NCBI RefSeq assembly: GCF_000469545.1
Contig: NZ_KI273058.1
Coordinates: 181,102 to 245,101 of the forward strand
Direction: 5' to 3'
Source of the DNA: Mitsuokella sp. oral taxon 131 str. W9106
Lineage (GTDB): Bacteria > Bacillota > Negativicutes > Selenomonadales > Selenomonadaceae
Length of the DNA: 64,000 bases
Positions within the stretch are counted from its first letter, which is position 1. Each line of letters begins with the position of its first letter. The translations under genes were made by a program, and so were the position numbers. The notes under the pieces are model-generated. The model did no database searches. It saw only the letters and a program-made list of their open reading frames with translations, and had not been told where the DNA came from. Below, piece by piece: positions 6,100 through 22,215 of this stretch.

Positions 6100-6128
6100 A
6101 CTTTTTTATTAACAATGCTCCAAAGATA

Positions 6129-6157
6129 TTGACTCAGCAGTCAATGACCGGTATAAT
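6129..6157 (+). promoter_or_regulatory. Sigma-A promoter of the repeat-peptide gene
   Basis: TTGACT (6129-6134), a 17-base spacer and a consensus TATAAT (6152-6157). The precursor start codon is 36 bases downstream. The promoter is strong, as expected for a precursor peptide made in excess. Confidence 0.75.
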
Positions 6158-6192
6158 ATAAGTGCCAACTAATTATGAATGGAGGTATTCTT

Positions 6193-6420
6193 ATGGCACT
6201 CTCAAATCTCAGCGAATGGTCAGCTTCCGGAACAGCCTGCGGATCATCTGACAAGCCTGCAGCTTGTGGTTCTTCTGATAAGCCTCCAGCTTGCGGATCA
6301 TCTGACAAACCCGCCGCTTGCGGTTCTGCGGACAAGCCGGCGGCTTGCGGTTCTTCTGATAAGCCTGCGGCATGCGGCAGTGCGGACAAGCCTTCCGCTT
6401 GCGGAGCTTCCGACAAGTAA
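6193..6420 (+). CDS. Cys-x3-Asp repeat RiPP precursor peptide (ACGX-type, ranthipeptide-like)
   Basis: 75 residues from the ATG at 6193, with GGAGG (6181-6185) at a spacing of seven. A short N-terminal region, MALSNLSEWSASGT, precedes seven copies of a 9-residue unit of the form ACGSSDKPA. Each unit holds one Cys and an Asp four positions later (CGSSD, CGSAD or CGASD); there is no other Cys. In freyrasin-type ranthipeptides a radical SAM enzyme joins the Cys sulfur of each CX3D motif to a carbon of the Asp. The repeat also fits what I remember as the ACGX-repeat peptide family, whose partner is a radical SAM/SPASM protein like the next gene. The mature product and its activity are unknown; an antimicrobial or metal-binding role is only a guess. 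Confidence 0.85.
   Translation: MALSNLSEWSASGTACGSSDKPAACGSSDKPPACGSSDKPAACGSADKPAACGSSDKPAACGSADKPSACGASDK
6234..6417 (+). repeat. 27-bp tandem repeat encoding the CX3D units
   Basis: Seven in-frame units of 27 bases, the last shortened to 21. Units differ mostly at third codon positions (TCT/TCG, GCT/GCG/GCC, TGC/TGT), while the Cys, Gly, Asp and Lys codons are kept. This suggests selection on the peptide rather than recent duplication alone. Confidence 0.85.
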
Positions 6421-6449
6421 GAAGCGGCATCGTAAGAGAGAACGGTCGG

Positions 6450-6484
6450 TCACCGGGAGGCTTCGCGCTTTCCGGTGATTTTTT
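6450..6484 (+). terminator. Strong hairpin plus T6 between precursor and maturase
   Basis: TCACCGGGAGGC pairs with the GC-rich 3' arm ending CCGGTGA (12 pairs, including three G-T pairs) around a TTCGC loop, followed by six T. It lies 30 bases after the precursor stop and 12 before the maturase start, so it probably lets only part of the transcripts continue into the enzyme gene. Confidence 0.8.
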
Positions 6485-6496
6485 ATGGGAGGGCTT

Positions 6497-7549
6497 ATGA
6501 ACTATTTTGCGTTTCAATGGCAGCTGCTCGATGACTGTGACCAGCGGTGCAGGCATTGCTATATCTTTCATGGGAATAATGGCGTGCCGCTCACACGTAT
6601 GGGTTCGGAGCAGATCGATAAGACGCTCGAAAACTGCCTTGATTTCTGCAGGACGTTTCAAAGGCTTCCTGAGTTGTACATTACGGGCGGCGACCCGATA
6701 TTGCACAGGGATTTCTGGCGGCTCCTCGAAAAGCTGCATGAGCTGGATATTCCTTTCACGATTATGGGCAATCCCTTTCATCTAAGCGATGAAGTATGTC
6801 AGAGAATGCGCGGCCTCGGCTGCAAGAAATATCAGATGTCGCTTGACGGTCTGCAGGAAACCCATGACTGGTTTCGCAAACCGGGCAGCTTTGACATTAC
6901 GCTCGAAAAAGTCGCCTGTATCAATAAATCGGGAATGCACAGTGTGATCATGTCCACGGTTTCGAGCAAAAATATTGACGAGATTCCGGAACTGATTGAC
7001 ATTTGCGCGGAGCACGATGCAGACATCTTCGCTTTCTCACGTTACTGTCCGGGCGCGGAGGACAAGACCAACGGCATCACGCCGGAGCAGTATCGGGAGT
7101 TTCTGCTTAAATGTGACGAGAAGTTTGAATATTACAATAACCTGTGCTATTTCGGAAAGGGACGGCTCTGGTGCAATAAAAAAGACCATCTGTGGACGCT
7201 GCTTGACTGGGAGCTCGGCCGTTTCAAAATTCCTGAAAACGCAAAGGAAAACATGATCTATGGCGGCTGCAACTGCGGCAACTGCCACTTAACCATTCTG
7301 CCGACCGGTGATGTTTACGCCTGCCGGAGGCTGTCAAGCAAGGTCGGGAATGTTTTCAAAGACAGGCTGGCTGACATATGGCTGAAGCCGATGGAGGACT
7401 ACCGACAGTACGACAAATTTGAGAAATGCTCGAAATGCGAGTTGCTGCGGTTTTGCCGTGGGTGTCCCGCCGTAGCGCACGGAACATACGGAAGCTTTTA
7501 TGCGGAAGATCCGCAGTGCTGGCACGAGGTACAGGAATCATGTCAATGA
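6497..7549 (+). CDS. Radical SAM/SPASM peptide maturase (ACGX system)
   Basis: 350 residues from the ATG at 6497, preceded by GGGAGGG. The radical SAM cluster motif CDQRCRHC (C14, C18, C21) binds the [4Fe-4S] centre that cleaves S-adenosylmethionine; TGGDP is the GGE-like SAM site. A C-terminal SPASM region holds a first Cys group (CNCGNC, then a Cys 13 residues on, about 257-275) and a second one (CSKC, FCRGC and a last Cys before Trp, about 312-344) for auxiliary Fe-S clusters, as in enzymes that make thioether bonds in peptides. The substrate should be the Cys-repeat peptide directly upstream. No separate peptide-recognition (RRE) domain is obvious. The exact bond formed cannot be read from sequence. 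Confidence 0.87.
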   Translation: MNYFAFQWQLLDDCDQRCRHCYIFHGNNGVPLTRMGSEQIDKTLENCLDFCRTFQRLPELYITGGDPILHRDFWRLLEKLHELDIPFTIMGNPFHLSDEVCQRMRGLGCKKYQMSLDGLQETHDWFRKPGSFDITLEKVACINKSGMHSVIMSTVSSKNIDEIPELIDICAEHDADIFAFSRYCPGAEDKTNGITPEQYREFLLKCDEKFEYYNNLCYFGKGRLWCNKKDHLWTLLDWELGRFKIPENAKENMIYGGCNCGNCHLTILPTGDVYACRRLSSKVGNVFKDRLADIWLKPMEDYRQYDKFEKCSKCELLRFCRGCPAVAHGTYGSFYAEDPQCWHEVQESCQ

Positions 7550-8148
7550 CAGCAGAAAACAGGAAAATACTGGAAGATAAACGCACAAGCGAGATACAGG
7601 CGGCGGCGAAGAAGCTGTTCAGCATTTACGGGTATTGCCATACAAGCATGGACTCCGTGGCTGTGGAAGCCGGAATCAGCAAAGGACTGATTTATCACTA
7701 CTTCAAAAACAAGGAAGACCTGCTGCTGTCGTTTTCTGATGAAGTGGAAGAATATCTTCATAAACTGAAAAAAGAAAAAAATCCTGTGACGGCACTGAAA
7801 CGGTTCGGGACAGATTTCCTTACTTCTGACGAATCCAAATATGCAGACATGCCACCGATACAGCTGCTGCTCATTACTTTCGCCAATCAGGAAATGGATA
7901 TATCAAAATACGAAAAGCAGAATCCCATCCTGCGTGACTTCGGCAGAGGTTATCTCGGCGGATTCTTTCAGCAGGGAATAGACGCGGGTATCTTTCAAAA
8001 TGGAAATGCCAAAGTCTACGGAGACATTTACTGGTCTTTCCTGATGGGCAAACTGCTGCCAATCAAAAAAGGCAACGAAAAGGGAAAGCCGGAAGTTTAT
8101 GTGGACGAAATTCTGATGCTGTTTATAAAGAAGAAACAGGAGGGCTGA
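7540..8148 (+). CDS. TetR-family transcriptional regulator
   Basis: About 202 residues from ATG 7540 (ATG 7546 is equally possible); the start overlaps the maturase stop codon. The N-terminal helix-turn-helix is typical of TetR: EIQAAAKKLFSIYGYCHTSMDSVAVEAGISKGLIYHYFKNKEDLL. The C-terminal half should bind a ligand but resembles no specific group I know. Placed inside the cluster and co-translated with the maturase, it probably controls the island. No clear palindromic operator was seen near the promoter at 6129-6157. Confidence 0.85.
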   Translation: MSMTAENRKILEDKRTSEIQAAAKKLFSIYGYCHTSMDSVAVEAGISKGLIYHYFKNKEDLLLSFSDEVEEYLHKLKKEKNPVTALKRFGTDFLTSDESKYADMPPIQLLLITFANQEMDISKYEKQNPILRDFGRGYLGGFFQQGIDAGIFQNGNAKVYGDIYWSFLMGKLLPIKKGNEKGKPEVYVDEILMLFIKKKQEG

Positions 8149-8150
8149 AT

Positions 8151-8762
8151 ATGGATGCCAAAACCTGTATTTTGAAACTATCCTATGTCGGCGTGCTCAA
8201 TTTTGCTACCGTTGACCAAAACGGGCTGCCGCAGGTGCGCTGTATCAGTGCGGTTCATTATGAGGAGAACTCCTTCTGGTTTCTGACGGCAAGGGGAAAG
8301 GAATTTTACCATCAGCTGATCGAAGATGGGCATGTGCAGATCCTTGTCTATACACGGTTCAAGGAAATGATCCGCGTTTCCGCTGTGGCAAAACGCCTGC
8401 CGGACGAAGTGCAGGAAAGCTGCCGGAATACAATCTGGGAAGAACAGCCCTATATGGAAAATGTCTATCCAAACGGCACAAGGGAAATCCTGGAAGCTTT
8501 TGAAATCAAGGATATGCAGATGGAGTATTTCAATCTCGGAACCCACCCGATTGGCCGCTACTATTACACGGTCGGAAACGCAGAGCCGATCGTTAAAGGA
8601 TACCACATTTCCGATGCGTGCATTCAGTGCGGAACCTGTGCGGAAGGATGTCCGCAGAATGCGATTGACGAGGGCGAGCCATTCGTCATTCATCAGGATC
8701 ACTGCCTGCAGTGCGGCAGATGCTACGAAAACTGTCCGGTGCAGGCGATAGAAAGATTATGA
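8151..8762 (+). CDS. FMN-binding split-barrel protein with two [4Fe-4S] ferredoxin motifs
   Basis: 203 residues, starting two bases after the TetR stop with GGAGGG upstream. Residues 1-130 resemble the pyridoxamine-phosphate-oxidase-like FMN split barrel (YVGVLNFATVDQNGLPQVRCISAV...FWFLTARGKEFYHQL). The C-terminus has two full ferredoxin motifs, CIQCGTCAEGCP and CLQCGRCYENCP. Such proteins pass electrons between flavin and Fe-S clusters. In this island it could supply electrons to the radical SAM enzyme, or reduce a small molecule; both are inference. Confidence 0.8.
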   Translation: MDAKTCILKLSYVGVLNFATVDQNGLPQVRCISAVHYEENSFWFLTARGKEFYHQLIEDGHVQILVYTRFKEMIRVSAVAKRLPDEVQESCRNTIWEEQPYMENVYPNGTREILEAFEIKDMQMEYFNLGTHPIGRYYYTVGNAEPIVKGYHISDACIQCGTCAEGCPQNAIDEGEPFVIHQDHCLQCGRCYENCPVQAIERL

Positions 8763-8772
8763 GGGAAAAGCA

Positions 8773-9744
8773 ATGAACCAAACGATGAAAGCGGTTTTGA
8801 TAGACAAGCCGATAAAAGGCGCGGACGTGGAACTCTCGGAAGTGTCGATTCCGCAGGTTCAGCCCGGCTGGGTGCTGGTTAAAGTAAAAGCCTTTGGCAT
8901 GAACCATTCGGAGGAAATTCTGCGGGAGTTTGAAATTGAAAATGACTATATCAAAAAGCCGATCATTGCCGACATTGAATGTGTCGGAGAGATCGTCGAT
9001 CCGTCCGACAGCGGTCTTGCAAAAGGACAGAAAGTCGCGGCTCTGATGGGCGGCATGGGCAGGAGCTTTGACGGTAGCTACGCCGAGTATGCTCTGCTCC
9101 CCGTTTCTCATGTGCTTCCGGTGGAGTCCAATCTCACGTGGGAAGAAATGGCAGCGATTCCGGAAACATATTTCACGGCGTGGGGTTCGCTCTTCCAGTG
9201 CCTGCGCCTGCAGCCGGAGGACACGCTTTTAATCCGAGGCGCGACCTGCGCCCTCGGTTATGCGGCGGTTCAGCTTGCAAAAGCGCTTGGCTGCAAGGTC
9301 ATCGGCACAACACACAGGGAATCCAAAATGCAGCTCTTAAAAGACGCTGGCTGCGACGAATGCCTGCTTGACGACAGGAGCCTTCGCGGGCGTGTCCATG
9401 GAGTGAATAAAGCCTTGGAACTTATCGGAATCAAAACGGTGCAGGATACCATGATGAGCGTTGAACAGGGCGGAATCGTCTGCAACACGGATGTTTTGGG
9501 CAAGGTTTACGAGTGGAATCACTTTGACCCGATTAAAGACATTCCAAACGGCGTCTGCCTGACGGGTTTCTACTCCAACTATCCCACAACTGAGATGATG
9601 CGGGACATCTATCATTTCATGGATGAACATCACCTCAAGCCGCTGTATGGTGCGGTATATGATTTCAAGGATATCCGCGAGGCCTGCATTGCTCTCGATG
9701 AGGGTAAGGTCAACGGGAAAATCGTGGTCAGAGTTGAAGATTGA
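8773..9744 (+). CDS. MDR-family (quinone-oxidoreductase-like) dehydrogenase
   Basis: 323 residues, SD-like GAGGG upstream. A medium-chain dehydrogenase with a GroES-like N-terminus and a Rossmann NADPH site (TLLIRGATCALGYAAVQLAKALGCKVIGTTH, about 155-185). The Cys/His zinc ligands of alcohol dehydrogenases are missing, so it belongs with the zinc-free quinone/enone reductases. It is the fifth gene of the peptide island, eleven bases after the FMN/ferredoxin gene. The substrate is unknown. It could act on the peptide or simply travel with the regulator. Confidence 0.8.
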   Translation: MNQTMKAVLIDKPIKGADVELSEVSIPQVQPGWVLVKVKAFGMNHSEEILREFEIENDYIKKPIIADIECVGEIVDPSDSGLAKGQKVAALMGGMGRSFDGSYAEYALLPVSHVLPVESNLTWEEMAAIPETYFTAWGSLFQCLRLQPEDTLLIRGATCALGYAAVQLAKALGCKVIGTTHRESKMQLLKDAGCDECLLDDRSLRGRVHGVNKALELIGIKTVQDTMMSVEQGGIVCNTDVLGKVYEWNHFDPIKDIPNGVCLTGFYSNYPTTEMMRDIYHFMDEHHLKPLYGAVYDFKDIREACIALDEGKVNGKIVVRVED

Positions 9745-19291: not shown

Positions 19292-19897
19292 TTGTTGGAA
19301 GAGAAGATGGGGCGAAGGGAGCGCAAGAAGCTGCTTTCGCGCAAGGCCATATTGGATGCGGCGGCGCGGGCATTTTCCGAAAAGGGGTTTCGCGAGACGT
19401 CGGTAGCCGATATCATGAATGCGGCGGATCTCGGCATCGGCACGTTCTACAATTACTTCGAGTCGAAGGAAGAGATCTTGATGTGCCTGCTCGGGCAGCT
19501 CGTGCAGGAGGCCCGTGTGGAGATCGATGCGCTGCGCACGAAGGGGAGCACGGCGTCGGAGCTTTTGACGACGGTCTGCAGCATGACGGCGCGCTTCCTC
19601 GACGAGAACCGCTTCGTGCTGCCGCTTTTCCTTTCCGGCTCGGAGCACAGCGCCATGCCGGAAGGCATCGCACCGTCGCGCCAGCTCGAGACGCCTGGAT
19701 TCAAGTCGATCTTTGGACAGATTTTGCGTCAAGGGCAGGAGACAGGCGAGTTCCGATGCGACGTGCCCGTCGATCTTCTCGCGGAGATGTTCCACTCGCT
19801 CTATCAGGCGGCGGCATTCAGCAAGCTCACGTTTTCGTTTCGGGAAAATGTCGCGCTCAAGACGCGCATCCTGCTCGATGGGATCCGAGCAAAATAA
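19292..19897 (+). CDS. TetR-family transcriptional regulator
   Basis: 201 residues from a TTG start with GGGAGG about seven bases upstream; a TTG one codon later or ATG 19307 is also possible. The N-terminal DNA-binding domain is typical: AILDAAARAFSEKGFRETSVADIMNAADLGIGTFYNYFESKEEIL. The C-terminal domain is of the TetR_C type with no specific match. TATAAT at 19251-19256 may be its -10 box. It stands between the dead ABC transporter and the heme genes; it may have regulated either. Confidence 0.85.
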   Translation: MLEEKMGRRERKKLLSRKAILDAAARAFSEKGFRETSVADIMNAADLGIGTFYNYFESKEEILMCLLGQLVQEARVEIDALRTKGSTASELLTTVCSMTARFLDENRFVLPLFLSGSEHSAMPEGIAPSRQLETPGFKSIFGQILRQGQETGEFRCDVPVDLLAEMFHSLYQAAAFSKLTFSFRENVALKTRILLDGIRAK

Positions 19898-19948
19898 GGC
19901 GTGTGCAAAGAACGCGCCTAGGGCATTGTTTTTAGGAGCAAAAGAAGA

Positions 19949-21148
19949 ATGATCAGTGTTACAAAACTTTTATTCGCTCGTGAGTATTACGGGGATAAGC
20001 TGCGCTACACGAAGAGCGCGCATACGATGCGCAATGGTGCAAGCGAGGGCGTCGGCCCAGTCGTCGTTTGGAATTCGACGAAGACGTGCAATCTGAAATG
20101 CATGCATTGCTACATGGGATCGGATGCGCAGAAGTACAAGGACGAGCTCACGACGGAGGAAGCGAAGAAGTTTATCGACGACCTCGCGGACTTCCATGTG
20201 CCCGTGCTGCTCTTTTCGGGCGGGGAGCCGCTCATTCGTCCCGATTTCTTTGCGCTTGCGGCTTACGCGCAGGAAAAGGGCGTGCGTCCGACACTCTCGA
20301 CGAACGGCACGCTCATCACGCGCGAGGTCGCGCAGAAGATCAAGGACATCGGCGTCGGCTATGTCGGCATTTCGCTCGATGGGCTTCAAGACGTCAACGA
20401 CAAATTCCGCGGTGTCGAGGGCGCGTACGAGAAGGCGATGCAGGGCATTCAAAACTGTGTTGCAGTCGGTCAGCGCGTCGGTCTCCGTTTCACGATCAAC
20501 CATCACAATATCGCAGAGCTCGACAAGATCTTCGACTTTATCGAGGCGGAGCATATCAACCGCGTCTGTTTCTACCACCTCGTCTACAGCGGACGCGGTG
20601 AGAAGATGATGGATCAGGATGTGACGGCAGCGGAGTCGCGCCGCGCGATGGACACGATCATCCGCCGCACGAAGGACTTTGAGGCACGCGGGCTCGAAAA
20701 GGAGATTCTGACGGTTGACAACCACTGCGACGGGCCGTACCTTTACCTGAAAGCACTGGAGGCAGGCGATTACAGGAGAGCGAAGCAGATCGAGAAATTC
20801 ATCTCGATGAACGGCGGCAACCGTTCGGGCATCGCGTTCGGCGAAGTCGACCCGCAGGGCTACGTCCATCCCGATCAGTTCACGCAGCATCACACGTTCG
20901 GCAATGTACGCGAACGCAGGTTCGGCGATATTTGGTCGGATGTATCGAATCCCATCATGAAGGGACTCAAGAATCGCAAGCCGCTTCTCAAAGGACGCTG
21001 TGCGACGTGCCGCTTCCTCGCGAACTGCAACGGCAACTTCCGCACGCGCGCCGAGGCACGGACGGGCGATTTTTGGGCGTCCGATCCGAGCTGCTACCTC
21101 ACGGATGAGGAAATCGCGCAGGACAAGGCGCACGCTGTGGGCGAGTGA
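19949..21148 (+). CDS. NirJ1/AhbC-like radical SAM protein of heme synthesis
   Basis: 399 residues. The radical SAM motif CNLKCMHC (C47, C51, C54) and SGGEP are intact; the SPASM-type C-terminus has CATCRFLANCNGNF and a final Cys. The start MISVTKLLFAREYYGDKLRY and the partner gene downstream match the NirJ1 group of Firmicutes and other anaerobes. By analogy with AhbC it would remove the acetate side chains of 12,18-didecarboxysiroheme to give Fe-coproporphyrin III in the siroheme-dependent heme route. The other genes of that route are not in the window. Confidence 0.8.
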   Translation: MISVTKLLFAREYYGDKLRYTKSAHTMRNGASEGVGPVVVWNSTKTCNLKCMHCYMGSDAQKYKDELTTEEAKKFIDDLADFHVPVLLFSGGEPLIRPDFFALAAYAQEKGVRPTLSTNGTLITREVAQKIKDIGVGYVGISLDGLQDVNDKFRGVEGAYEKAMQGIQNCVAVGQRVGLRFTINHHNIAELDKIFDFIEAEHINRVCFYHLVYSGRGEKMMDQDVTAAESRRAMDTIIRRTKDFEARGLEKEILTVDNHCDGPYLYLKALEAGDYRRAKQIEKFISMNGGNRSGIAFGEVDPQGYVHPDQFTQHHTFGNVRERRFGDIWSDVSNPIMKGLKNRKPLLKGRCATCRFLANCNGNFRTRAEARTGDFWASDPSCYLTDEEIAQDKAHAVGE

Positions 21149-21216
21149 GCGTCGCCCGTCGCTTGGGATGGATCGGGCAGCAAAGCCAAACTGTGATGAT
21201 GGATACGGAGAGCATC

Positions 21217-22215
21217 ATGAAGATTATATCTTGGAATACGACGAATGCCTGCAATATGTACTGTGCACACTGCTATCGCGACGCAGGATGCAGGGCGGAG
21301 GAGGAGCTGAGTACGGCAGAAGGCAAGAAACTCCTCGATGAGATCGCGAAGGCGGGTTTCAAAATCATGATTTTTTCGGGCGGCGAGCCGCTCATGCGCC
21401 CCGATATCTTGGAGCTCGTCGAACACGCGGCAGGGCTTGGGCTGATCCCTGTCTTCGGTACGAACGGCACGCTCATCACGAAGCAGATGGCTCGCGGCCT
21501 AAAGTCCGCAGGCGCACGCGCAATGGGGATTTCGCTCGACTCGCTCGACCCCGAAAAGCACGACAAGTTCCGCAGCTTCCCCGGCGGCTGGGAGGGCGCA
21601 GTCGAGGGCATGAAGAACTGCACGGAGGCAGGGCTTCCGTTCCAGATCCATACGACGGTCATGGACTGGAACCAAGGCGAGCTTGAGGCGATGACGGACT
21701 TCGCCGTTTCGGTCGGCGCGAAGGCGCACCACTTCTTCTTCCTCGTGCCGACGGGGCGCGCCGAGACGATCGAAGAGGAGAGCCTGCGCGCCGAACAGTA
21801 CGAGGATGTCCTCACGCGCATCATGAAAAAGCAGCAGGAGGTCGATATCGAGCTCAAGCCGACGTGCGCGCCGCAGTTCCTGCGCATCACCGACCAGCTC
21901 GGCTACAAAAGCCGATTCCATCGCGGCTGCCTTGCCGGTCTTTCGTACTGCATCATCAGCCCACGCGGCAAGGTGCAGCCCTGCGCTTATCTCAATATGG
22001 AGCTCGGCGACGTGCGCGAGACGCCGTTTGACGAGATTTGGGAGCAGAGCGACGTGCTCAAAACGCTTCGCACGCTCGACTACAGCGGAGGCTGCGGCAC
22101 ATGCAGCTACAAGGGTGCCTGCGGTGGCTGCCGTGCGCGCGCCGCGTACTATCACGATGGCGACTACATGAGCGAAGAGCCTTGGTGCCTCTATCATGGG
22201 CGCCGCGGTGAGTGA
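21217..22215 (+). CDS. NirJ2/AhbD-like radical SAM protein of heme synthesis
   Basis: 332 residues from the ATG at 21217, preceded by CGGAG. Radical SAM motif CNMYCAHC (C12, C16, C19) and SGGEP are present. The SPASM end has GCLAGLSYCIISPRGKVQPCAYL and GGCGTCSYKGACGGCRARA. AhbD converts Fe-coproporphyrin III to heme by oxidative decarboxylation of two propionates; NirJ2 is its close relative in the NirJ1/NirJ2 pairs. It follows NirJ1 after 68 bases and ends in a terminator. Confidence 0.8.
   Translation: MKIISWNTTNACNMYCAHCYRDAGCRAEEELSTAEGKKLLDEIAKAGFKIMIFSGGEPLMRPDILELVEHAAGLGLIPVFGTNGTLITKQMARGLKSAGARAMGISLDSLDPEKHDKFRSFPGGWEGAVEGMKNCTEAGLPFQIHTTVMDWNQGELEAMTDFAVSVGAKAHHFFFLVPTGRAETIEEESLRAEQYEDVLTRIMKKQQEVDIELKPTCAPQFLRITDQLGYKSRFHRGCLAGLSYCIISPRGKVQPCAYLNMELGDVRETPFDEIWEQSDVLKTLRTLDYSGGCGTCSYKGACGGCRARAAYYHDGDYMSEEPWCLYHGRRGE

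Follow-up and report, generated by a model that had tools for sequence, protein, structure and literature searches.

The question that this locus raises is what a bacterium of an anaerobic type makes of a small peptide in which one cysteine-bearing unit is repeated seven times, and which reaction the radical SAM enzyme encoded directly behind it carries out. We analyzed a 64,000-nucleotide stretch (the window) of the 2.3-Mb genome of Mitsuokella sp. oral taxon 131 str. W9106, in which positions 6193-9744 would constitute an operon, acgAM, of what NCBIfam calls the "ACGX system." The features on which the argument draws are as follows.

6128-6145, no strand: palindrome ATTGACT-CAGC-AGTCAAT over the -35 box, a candidate operator for the operon's TetR gene
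6129-6157, plus strand: sigma-70-type promoter TTGACT-17-TATAAT (11 of 12 consensus positions; a consensus match only)
6193-6420, plus strand: acgA, ACGX-repeat precursor peptide of 75 aa (TIGR04341, 46.6 bits; genome search)
6448-6484, plus strand: terminator-like hairpin (14 pairs; fold z-score -3.07) with a T-run, separating acgA from acgM
6497-7549, plus strand: acgM, radical SAM/SPASM maturase (TIGR04340, 548.7 bits; alignment; tree)
7540-8148, plus strand: TetR-family regulator overlapping the acgM stop (Pfam TetR_N, 5e-15)
8151-8762, plus strand: fusion of a flavin (PNPOx-like) domain and a 2x[4Fe-4S] ferredoxin (Pfam PNPOx_N and Fer4; homologues at 10 of 35 loci)
8773-9744, plus strand: zinc-type dehydrogenase/quinone-oxidoreductase-like protein of the PIG3 class (homologues at 23 of 35 loci)

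The acgA gene, with its ribosome-binding site GGAGG at 6181-6185, encodes the leader MALSNLSEWSASGT and then seven ACG[S/A][S/A]DK(P) units, giving seven Cys at a 9-residue period, all of which have Gly as the next residue (+1) and Asp at +4. The reading frame (6193-6417) has Cys codons only, with no in-frame TGA for selenocysteine. Against the ACGX-repeat peptide model TIGR04341 (cut-off, 28 bits) the peptide has an E value of 4e-12, and it is found at 30.1 bits in the genome-wide search. Only synonymous differences separate the units in their A, C, G, D, K, and P codons, and since many such changes have accumulated while the six residues stayed constant, selection appears to act on the protein sequence; unit positions 4, 5, and 9 vary among Ala, Ser, and Pro. 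The units are tandem duplicates, meaning that their regular spacing counts as one observation and not as seven independent ones. A chance or antisense open reading frame was considered and ruled out by this synonymous turnover and by the HMM scores, that for TIGR04341 lying above its cut-off.

The enzyme gene follows directly downstream, and its product retains the CxxxCxxC motif and every SPASM cysteine in the alignment. Its start more likely lies at 6497 than at 6485, because GGGAGGG at 6487-6493 precedes the former, because acgM family proteins begin with M-x-x-[YF]-[FL], and because 6485 sits directly behind the hairpin. The nearest full-length relatives of AcgM are about 62% identical to it. 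AcgM reads QWQ, as against QWH or QFH in the 23 other members compared, but keeps all cluster cysteines. AcgM exceeds the 400-bit cut-off of TIGR04340, the model for the radical SAM/SPASM protein of the ACGX system. The first-pass annotation was right that a 75-residue peptide of seven 9-residue Cys/Asp+4 units is followed by a radical SAM/SPASM gene and that the peptide has this maturase as its own; the family of ACGX-repeat peptides with such enzymes, which it had named, turns out to be the exact one, both proteins scoring above the curated cut-offs. The pair clearly belongs to a RiPP-like family that is catalogued but apparently unstudied; on the Roseburia plasmid NZ_CP135163.1, NCBI gives this gene pair the names acgA and acgM, and we found no paper on the ACGX family in the open-access literature, a scope outside which most subscription journals fall. 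A phage or viral origin was rejected, as a search at E 1e-40 matched no phage and a scan of viral contigs turned up no relative.

Which part of the unit matters to the enzyme can be asked of the precursors that we read beside acgM at loci from five phyla (Bacillota, Bacteroidota, Desulfovibrionaceae, Treponema, and Methanobacteriaceae loci). The 40 distinct acgA precursors contain 208 core Cys, of which 206 have Gly at +1 and 189 have Ala at -1. Asp stands at +4 of 109 of the 208, Asp or Glu of 121, and another Cys of 57. None of the 27 Cys in the three methanogen precursors has either acidic residue at +4. A second count, with one leader-boundary Cys set aside, gives 57 of 207 Cys with no Asp or Glu anywhere from +1 to +7. 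In four precursors the Cys outnumber the acidic residues, and one core (L011) combines six Cys with only three acidic residues. Most single or paired Cys units in the family do have an acidic residue close by, paired CGxxCG units occur in many members (none in the window peptide), and eight other precursors share with it an Asp at +4 of every Cys. These eight, together with the leaders of similar length that are common in Bacillota acgA (MALSNLxxW...), remove the impression that a leader of 14 residues and a perfect spacing are unusual, as had initially been proposed. A TIGR04341 search of the class to which the Methanobrevibacter locus belongs returned no match, a null result that reflects the model's missing divergent archaeal precursors, even plainly readable ones: the archaeal acgA peptides with ACGEE and ACGSE units at three loci (L049, L050, and L051) were apparently overlooked, so the ACGX family would be wider than its annotation suggests. 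A Bacteroidales MAG (L056) carries an acgM relative with neither a recognizable precursor nor the usual neighbors.

With respect to the enzyme, the best NCBIfam match of AcgM after its own model is SbtM (148.8 bits), followed by heme b synthase (120.5 bits); PapB reaches 50.1 bits and SCIFF 44.7 bits. AcgM remains below the cut-offs of SbtM (TIGR04082, 350 bits), PapB (NF047865, 340 bits), and SCIFF (TIGR03974, 425 bits). The match to TIGR04082 spans profile positions 199-515 only, leaving AcgM without the N-terminal part of SbtM. When profiles are compared with one another, ACGX finds SbtM as its best match and SbtM finds ACGX (375 and 378), and SCIFF (121) and PapB (81) are the weakest matches to ACGX among the compared groups. 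A 63-row tree places ACGX, SbtM, and two intermediates on one branch (99/97), and a second tree with four long rows left out recovers ACGX with SbtM at 98/93; an AU test of ACGX and the ranthipeptide enzymes (PapB/SCIFF) as a single clade does not reject that grouping (p 0.151). Common to ACGX and SbtM enzymes are QWH before CxxxCxxC, GNP, ACR[RK], and the SPASM cysteines, and AcgM carries additional family-conserved Cys outside the shared set. On these sequence comparisons, the nearest characterized relative of AcgM is the thio(seleno)oxazole maturase SbtM and not the freyrasin enzyme PapB. The two long-branched intermediates (L014, 1459-2865; L015, 1483-2631) each adjoin another radical SAM-like gene. 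Elsewhere, the host genome encodes a separate SCIFF enzyme, and the window itself has, at 19292-22215, two radical SAM/SPASM genes of the NirJ1/AhbC and NirJ2/AhbD kind that come after a TetR-type gene.

The SbtM precursors, read as small open reading frames at SbtM loci with in-frame TGA taken as Sec, consist of units such as GSGUGGNK and GSSUGGAKP plus a C-terminal copy, and in the clear cases (L085, L087, L088, L089, and L098) Gly follows every Sec; the [Cys/Sec]-Gly motif is thereby common to SbtM and acgA precursors. We found no SbtM above threshold in the window's phylum, and SbtM enzymes are present in the phylum to which the Humidesulfovibrio locus belongs. The SbtM reaction is reported to take away four hydrogens and to yield a thiooxazole (reviewed in PMC11002830). 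By analogy, AcgM would modify the Cys of each Ala-Cys-Gly unit, most likely in an SbtM-like way, with hydrogen abstraction at the Cys beta-carbon and subsequent oxidative cyclization with the preceding carbonyl to a thiooxazole. This would cost four hydrogens per Cys, or about -28 Da over seven sites, and Asp-Lys-Pro would serve as spacer and charge rather than as a cross-link partner. The modified peptide would probably stay in the cell and act with the operon's reductases in redox, electrophile, or soft-metal stress. To this reading as a whole, an intracellular redox/electrophile-stress RiPP with SbtM-like cyclized Cys-Gly units, in which modification, structure, retention, and role are all inferred, we give slightly less than even confidence. 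Its chemical part has to accommodate the distance of AcgM from the SbtM cut-off and the missing N-terminal part, given that chemistry can change at about 30% identity; the QWQ motif; and the nearby acidic residues in most units, which could serve a Cys-Asp/Glu cross-linker for some of the Cys.

That last point leads to the chemistry that had been proposed initially, in which AcgM is a ranthipeptide-type enzyme that joins each Cys to the Asp at +4 by a thioether as in freyrasin, giving up to seven rings. The window peptide by itself agrees with it, all seven Cys and those of the eight similar precursors having their Asp, with a DK pair that stays constant despite synonymous turnover, and neither does the AU test contradict it. 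PapB makes CX3D rings and accepts CXnD/E with n = 0-6 (PMC9413430), a tolerance that keeps variable spacing alone from counting against the rings; the case instead rests on the partnerless Cys and on the invariant Gly, which such rings do not need. Taken together with Asp+4 at about half of the Cys, Cys at +4 in 57, four precursors short of acidic residues, and the low PapB and SCIFF matches, this makes modification of Cys-Gly likelier, judging from the family alignments, than Cys-Asp rings, which have been ruled down as the most likely chemistry of the acgA family and which we retain as a quite unlikely rival. The HMM comparison with radical SAM RiPP families that had been suggested as a check places the enzyme in the ACGX system and speaks against the PapB type. 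The two chemistries would be told apart by a change of -4 Da with the product still alkylatable as against -2 Da with it blocked. Alternatively, AcgM could act on Cys-Gly by another reaction, forming inter-unit or backbone-carbon thioethers or some other oxidized sulfur group. An invariant Cys-Gly in the substrate of an enzyme that nevertheless falls under the SbtM cut-off would fit this, as would its extra conserved Cys and the paired CGxxCG units of many members; the closest characterized enzyme, however, makes a thiooxazole on Cys/Sec-Gly, and the window peptide has no Cys pairs, so that we hold this to be unlikely.

The proposed role follows from the gene neighborhood, counted over loci flanked by 1300 bases or more; as the loci are related, the counts are no independent trials. 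A quinone-oxidoreductase-like, nitroreductase, and/or flavin-ferredoxin gene lies downstream of acgM on the same strand at 34 of 35 loci, and an HxlR-family (HxlR/YodB-type) gene lies within 1500 bases upstream at 30 of 41, divergently at 29 of these; LysR regulators occur at four. Of the 32 HxlR stretches that were aligned, two of them fragments, 31 have a Cys at the CP position near the N terminus. We take DUF24 to be the HxlR family, to which YodB would then belong. YodB, a MarR/DUF24 regulator, senses quinones via Cys6 (PMC8063818). Sirtuin-like genes (assigned by weak NCBIfam matches and by the NCBI annotation in Roseburia) are present at 7 of 35 loci and macrodomain genes at 3 of 35, and SirTM/Zn-Macro pairs have been tied to oxidative stress (PMC11490716). 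The neighbor pattern holds across phyla. It suggests redox or electrophile stress inside the cell; this reading is based on gene neighbors, and the window has a TetR gene and not an HxlR gene.

Individual loci vary in layout. The Roseburia plasmid mentioned above (L118) carries a complete operon, with an HTH gene, acgA, acgM, and genes for a nitroreductase, a 4Fe-4S protein, an ADP-ribose hydrolase, a Sir2-like protein, and a DUF1848 protein. On the archaeal Methanosphaera plasmid pNP174 (L119, 4992-6016), acgM is annotated as two open reading frames, the radical SAM and SPASM parts; the frame preceding it is annotated "hypothetical protein," and the plasmid also has a BREX gene. In a Lachnospiraceae MAG (L062, 5980-6700), an acgM start of 84% identity is fused in frame to a TetR remnant, with no acgA seen and fragments of the flavin-ferredoxin gene behind the fusion; on this arrangement, it is a copy of the window-type operon that has either decayed or been misassembled.

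Within the window operon, the TetR protein may act on the palindrome over the -35 box, which is the sole match in the 2.3-Mb genome at up to one mismatch; a search of L062, the most closely related locus, did not find the palindrome there. The hairpin between acgA and acgM is what one would expect if the peptide is needed in excess of the enzyme, and is a probable attenuator holding the level of the peptide above that of the enzyme. Comparable hairpins, found at 15 of 39 loci in a loose scan with no shuffle control, faintly suggest a conserved attenuator across acgAM loci.

Two other functions can be set against the stress role. Modified Cys-Gly repeats could, with the chemistry of the preferred reading, buffer copper or other soft metals in the manner of captophorins, as an anaerobic counterpart of the MNIO pathway, which uses oxygen. 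MNIO enzymes, which are unrelated to SbtM, form a 5-thiooxazole in the EGKCG repeats of captophorins with loss of four hydrogens per repeat, the product absorbing at 302 nm and remaining alkylatable (PMC12668002), and copper binding and a link to oxidative and metal stress have been described (PMC12668002, PMC12452194). The precursors of bufferins and oxazolins, however, have Sec signal peptides (PMC12452194), which the acgA leaders by inspection do not resemble, and the annotated recurring neighbors are quinone and nitro reductases and redox-type regulators, with no metal gene among them, and we consider a metal buffer quite unlikely. A secreted antimicrobial or signaling RiPP would match the combination of a leader and a maturase with a small repeat peptide that many RiPP clusters show, and yet no transporter, protease, immunity, or export gene is among the annotated recurring neighbors (clusters at 3-4 loci being only partly annotated), and we consider it very improbable.

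As regards what the preferred reading could mean, the ACGX family is named in NCBI models and so already catalogued; the family evidence supplies testable chemistry and a testable biology of redox/electrophile stress rather than warfare. A wider proposal, speculative and in our view somewhat unlikely, is that acgAM encodes a stress RiPP that anaerobic bacteria and archaea do not secrete, in which a radical SAM enzyme would form a thiooxazole on every Cys-Gly without O2 and the product, controlled by thiol sensing, would buffer redox state, electrophiles, or metals, an independently evolved anaerobic counterpart of the O2-dependent captophorins with a tie to sirtuin/macrodomain ADP-ribosylation signaling in some hosts. 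If true, two unrelated enzyme families, one requiring O2 and one not, would arrive at one and the same sulfur heterocycle in Cys-Gly repeats, and RiPPs would acquire an intracellular stress role from bacteria to methanogens.

Compared with known systems, the locus is closest to the ACGX system itself (TIGR04341 plus TIGR04340), with the acgA-acgM order of NZ_CP135163.1, and differs from other members in its seven even units without CGxxCG, in TetR in place of HxlR, and in QWQ in place of QWH. It resembles SbtM/SbtA (TIGR04082) in its reciprocal best enzyme profile, [Cys/Sec]-Gly repeats, and SPASM cysteines, whereas AcgM stays under the cut-off and lacks the N-terminal extension and AcgA has Cys instead of Sec and a different leader. 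With PapB/PapA (freyrasin) and SCIFF it shares a radical SAM/SPASM enzyme beside a Cys-rich peptide, and the window peptide the CX3D spacing, but AcgM is far under both cut-offs, and in the acgA family Cys-Gly is invariant and Asp+4 is not conserved. The captophorins and bufferins share the Cys-Gly repeats, the proposed product, and the stress link; theirs, however, is a multinuclear non-heme iron enzyme, a Pfam scan detects no MNIO (DUF692) enzyme among the five proteins of the window operon, and the neighbors give no hint of copper.
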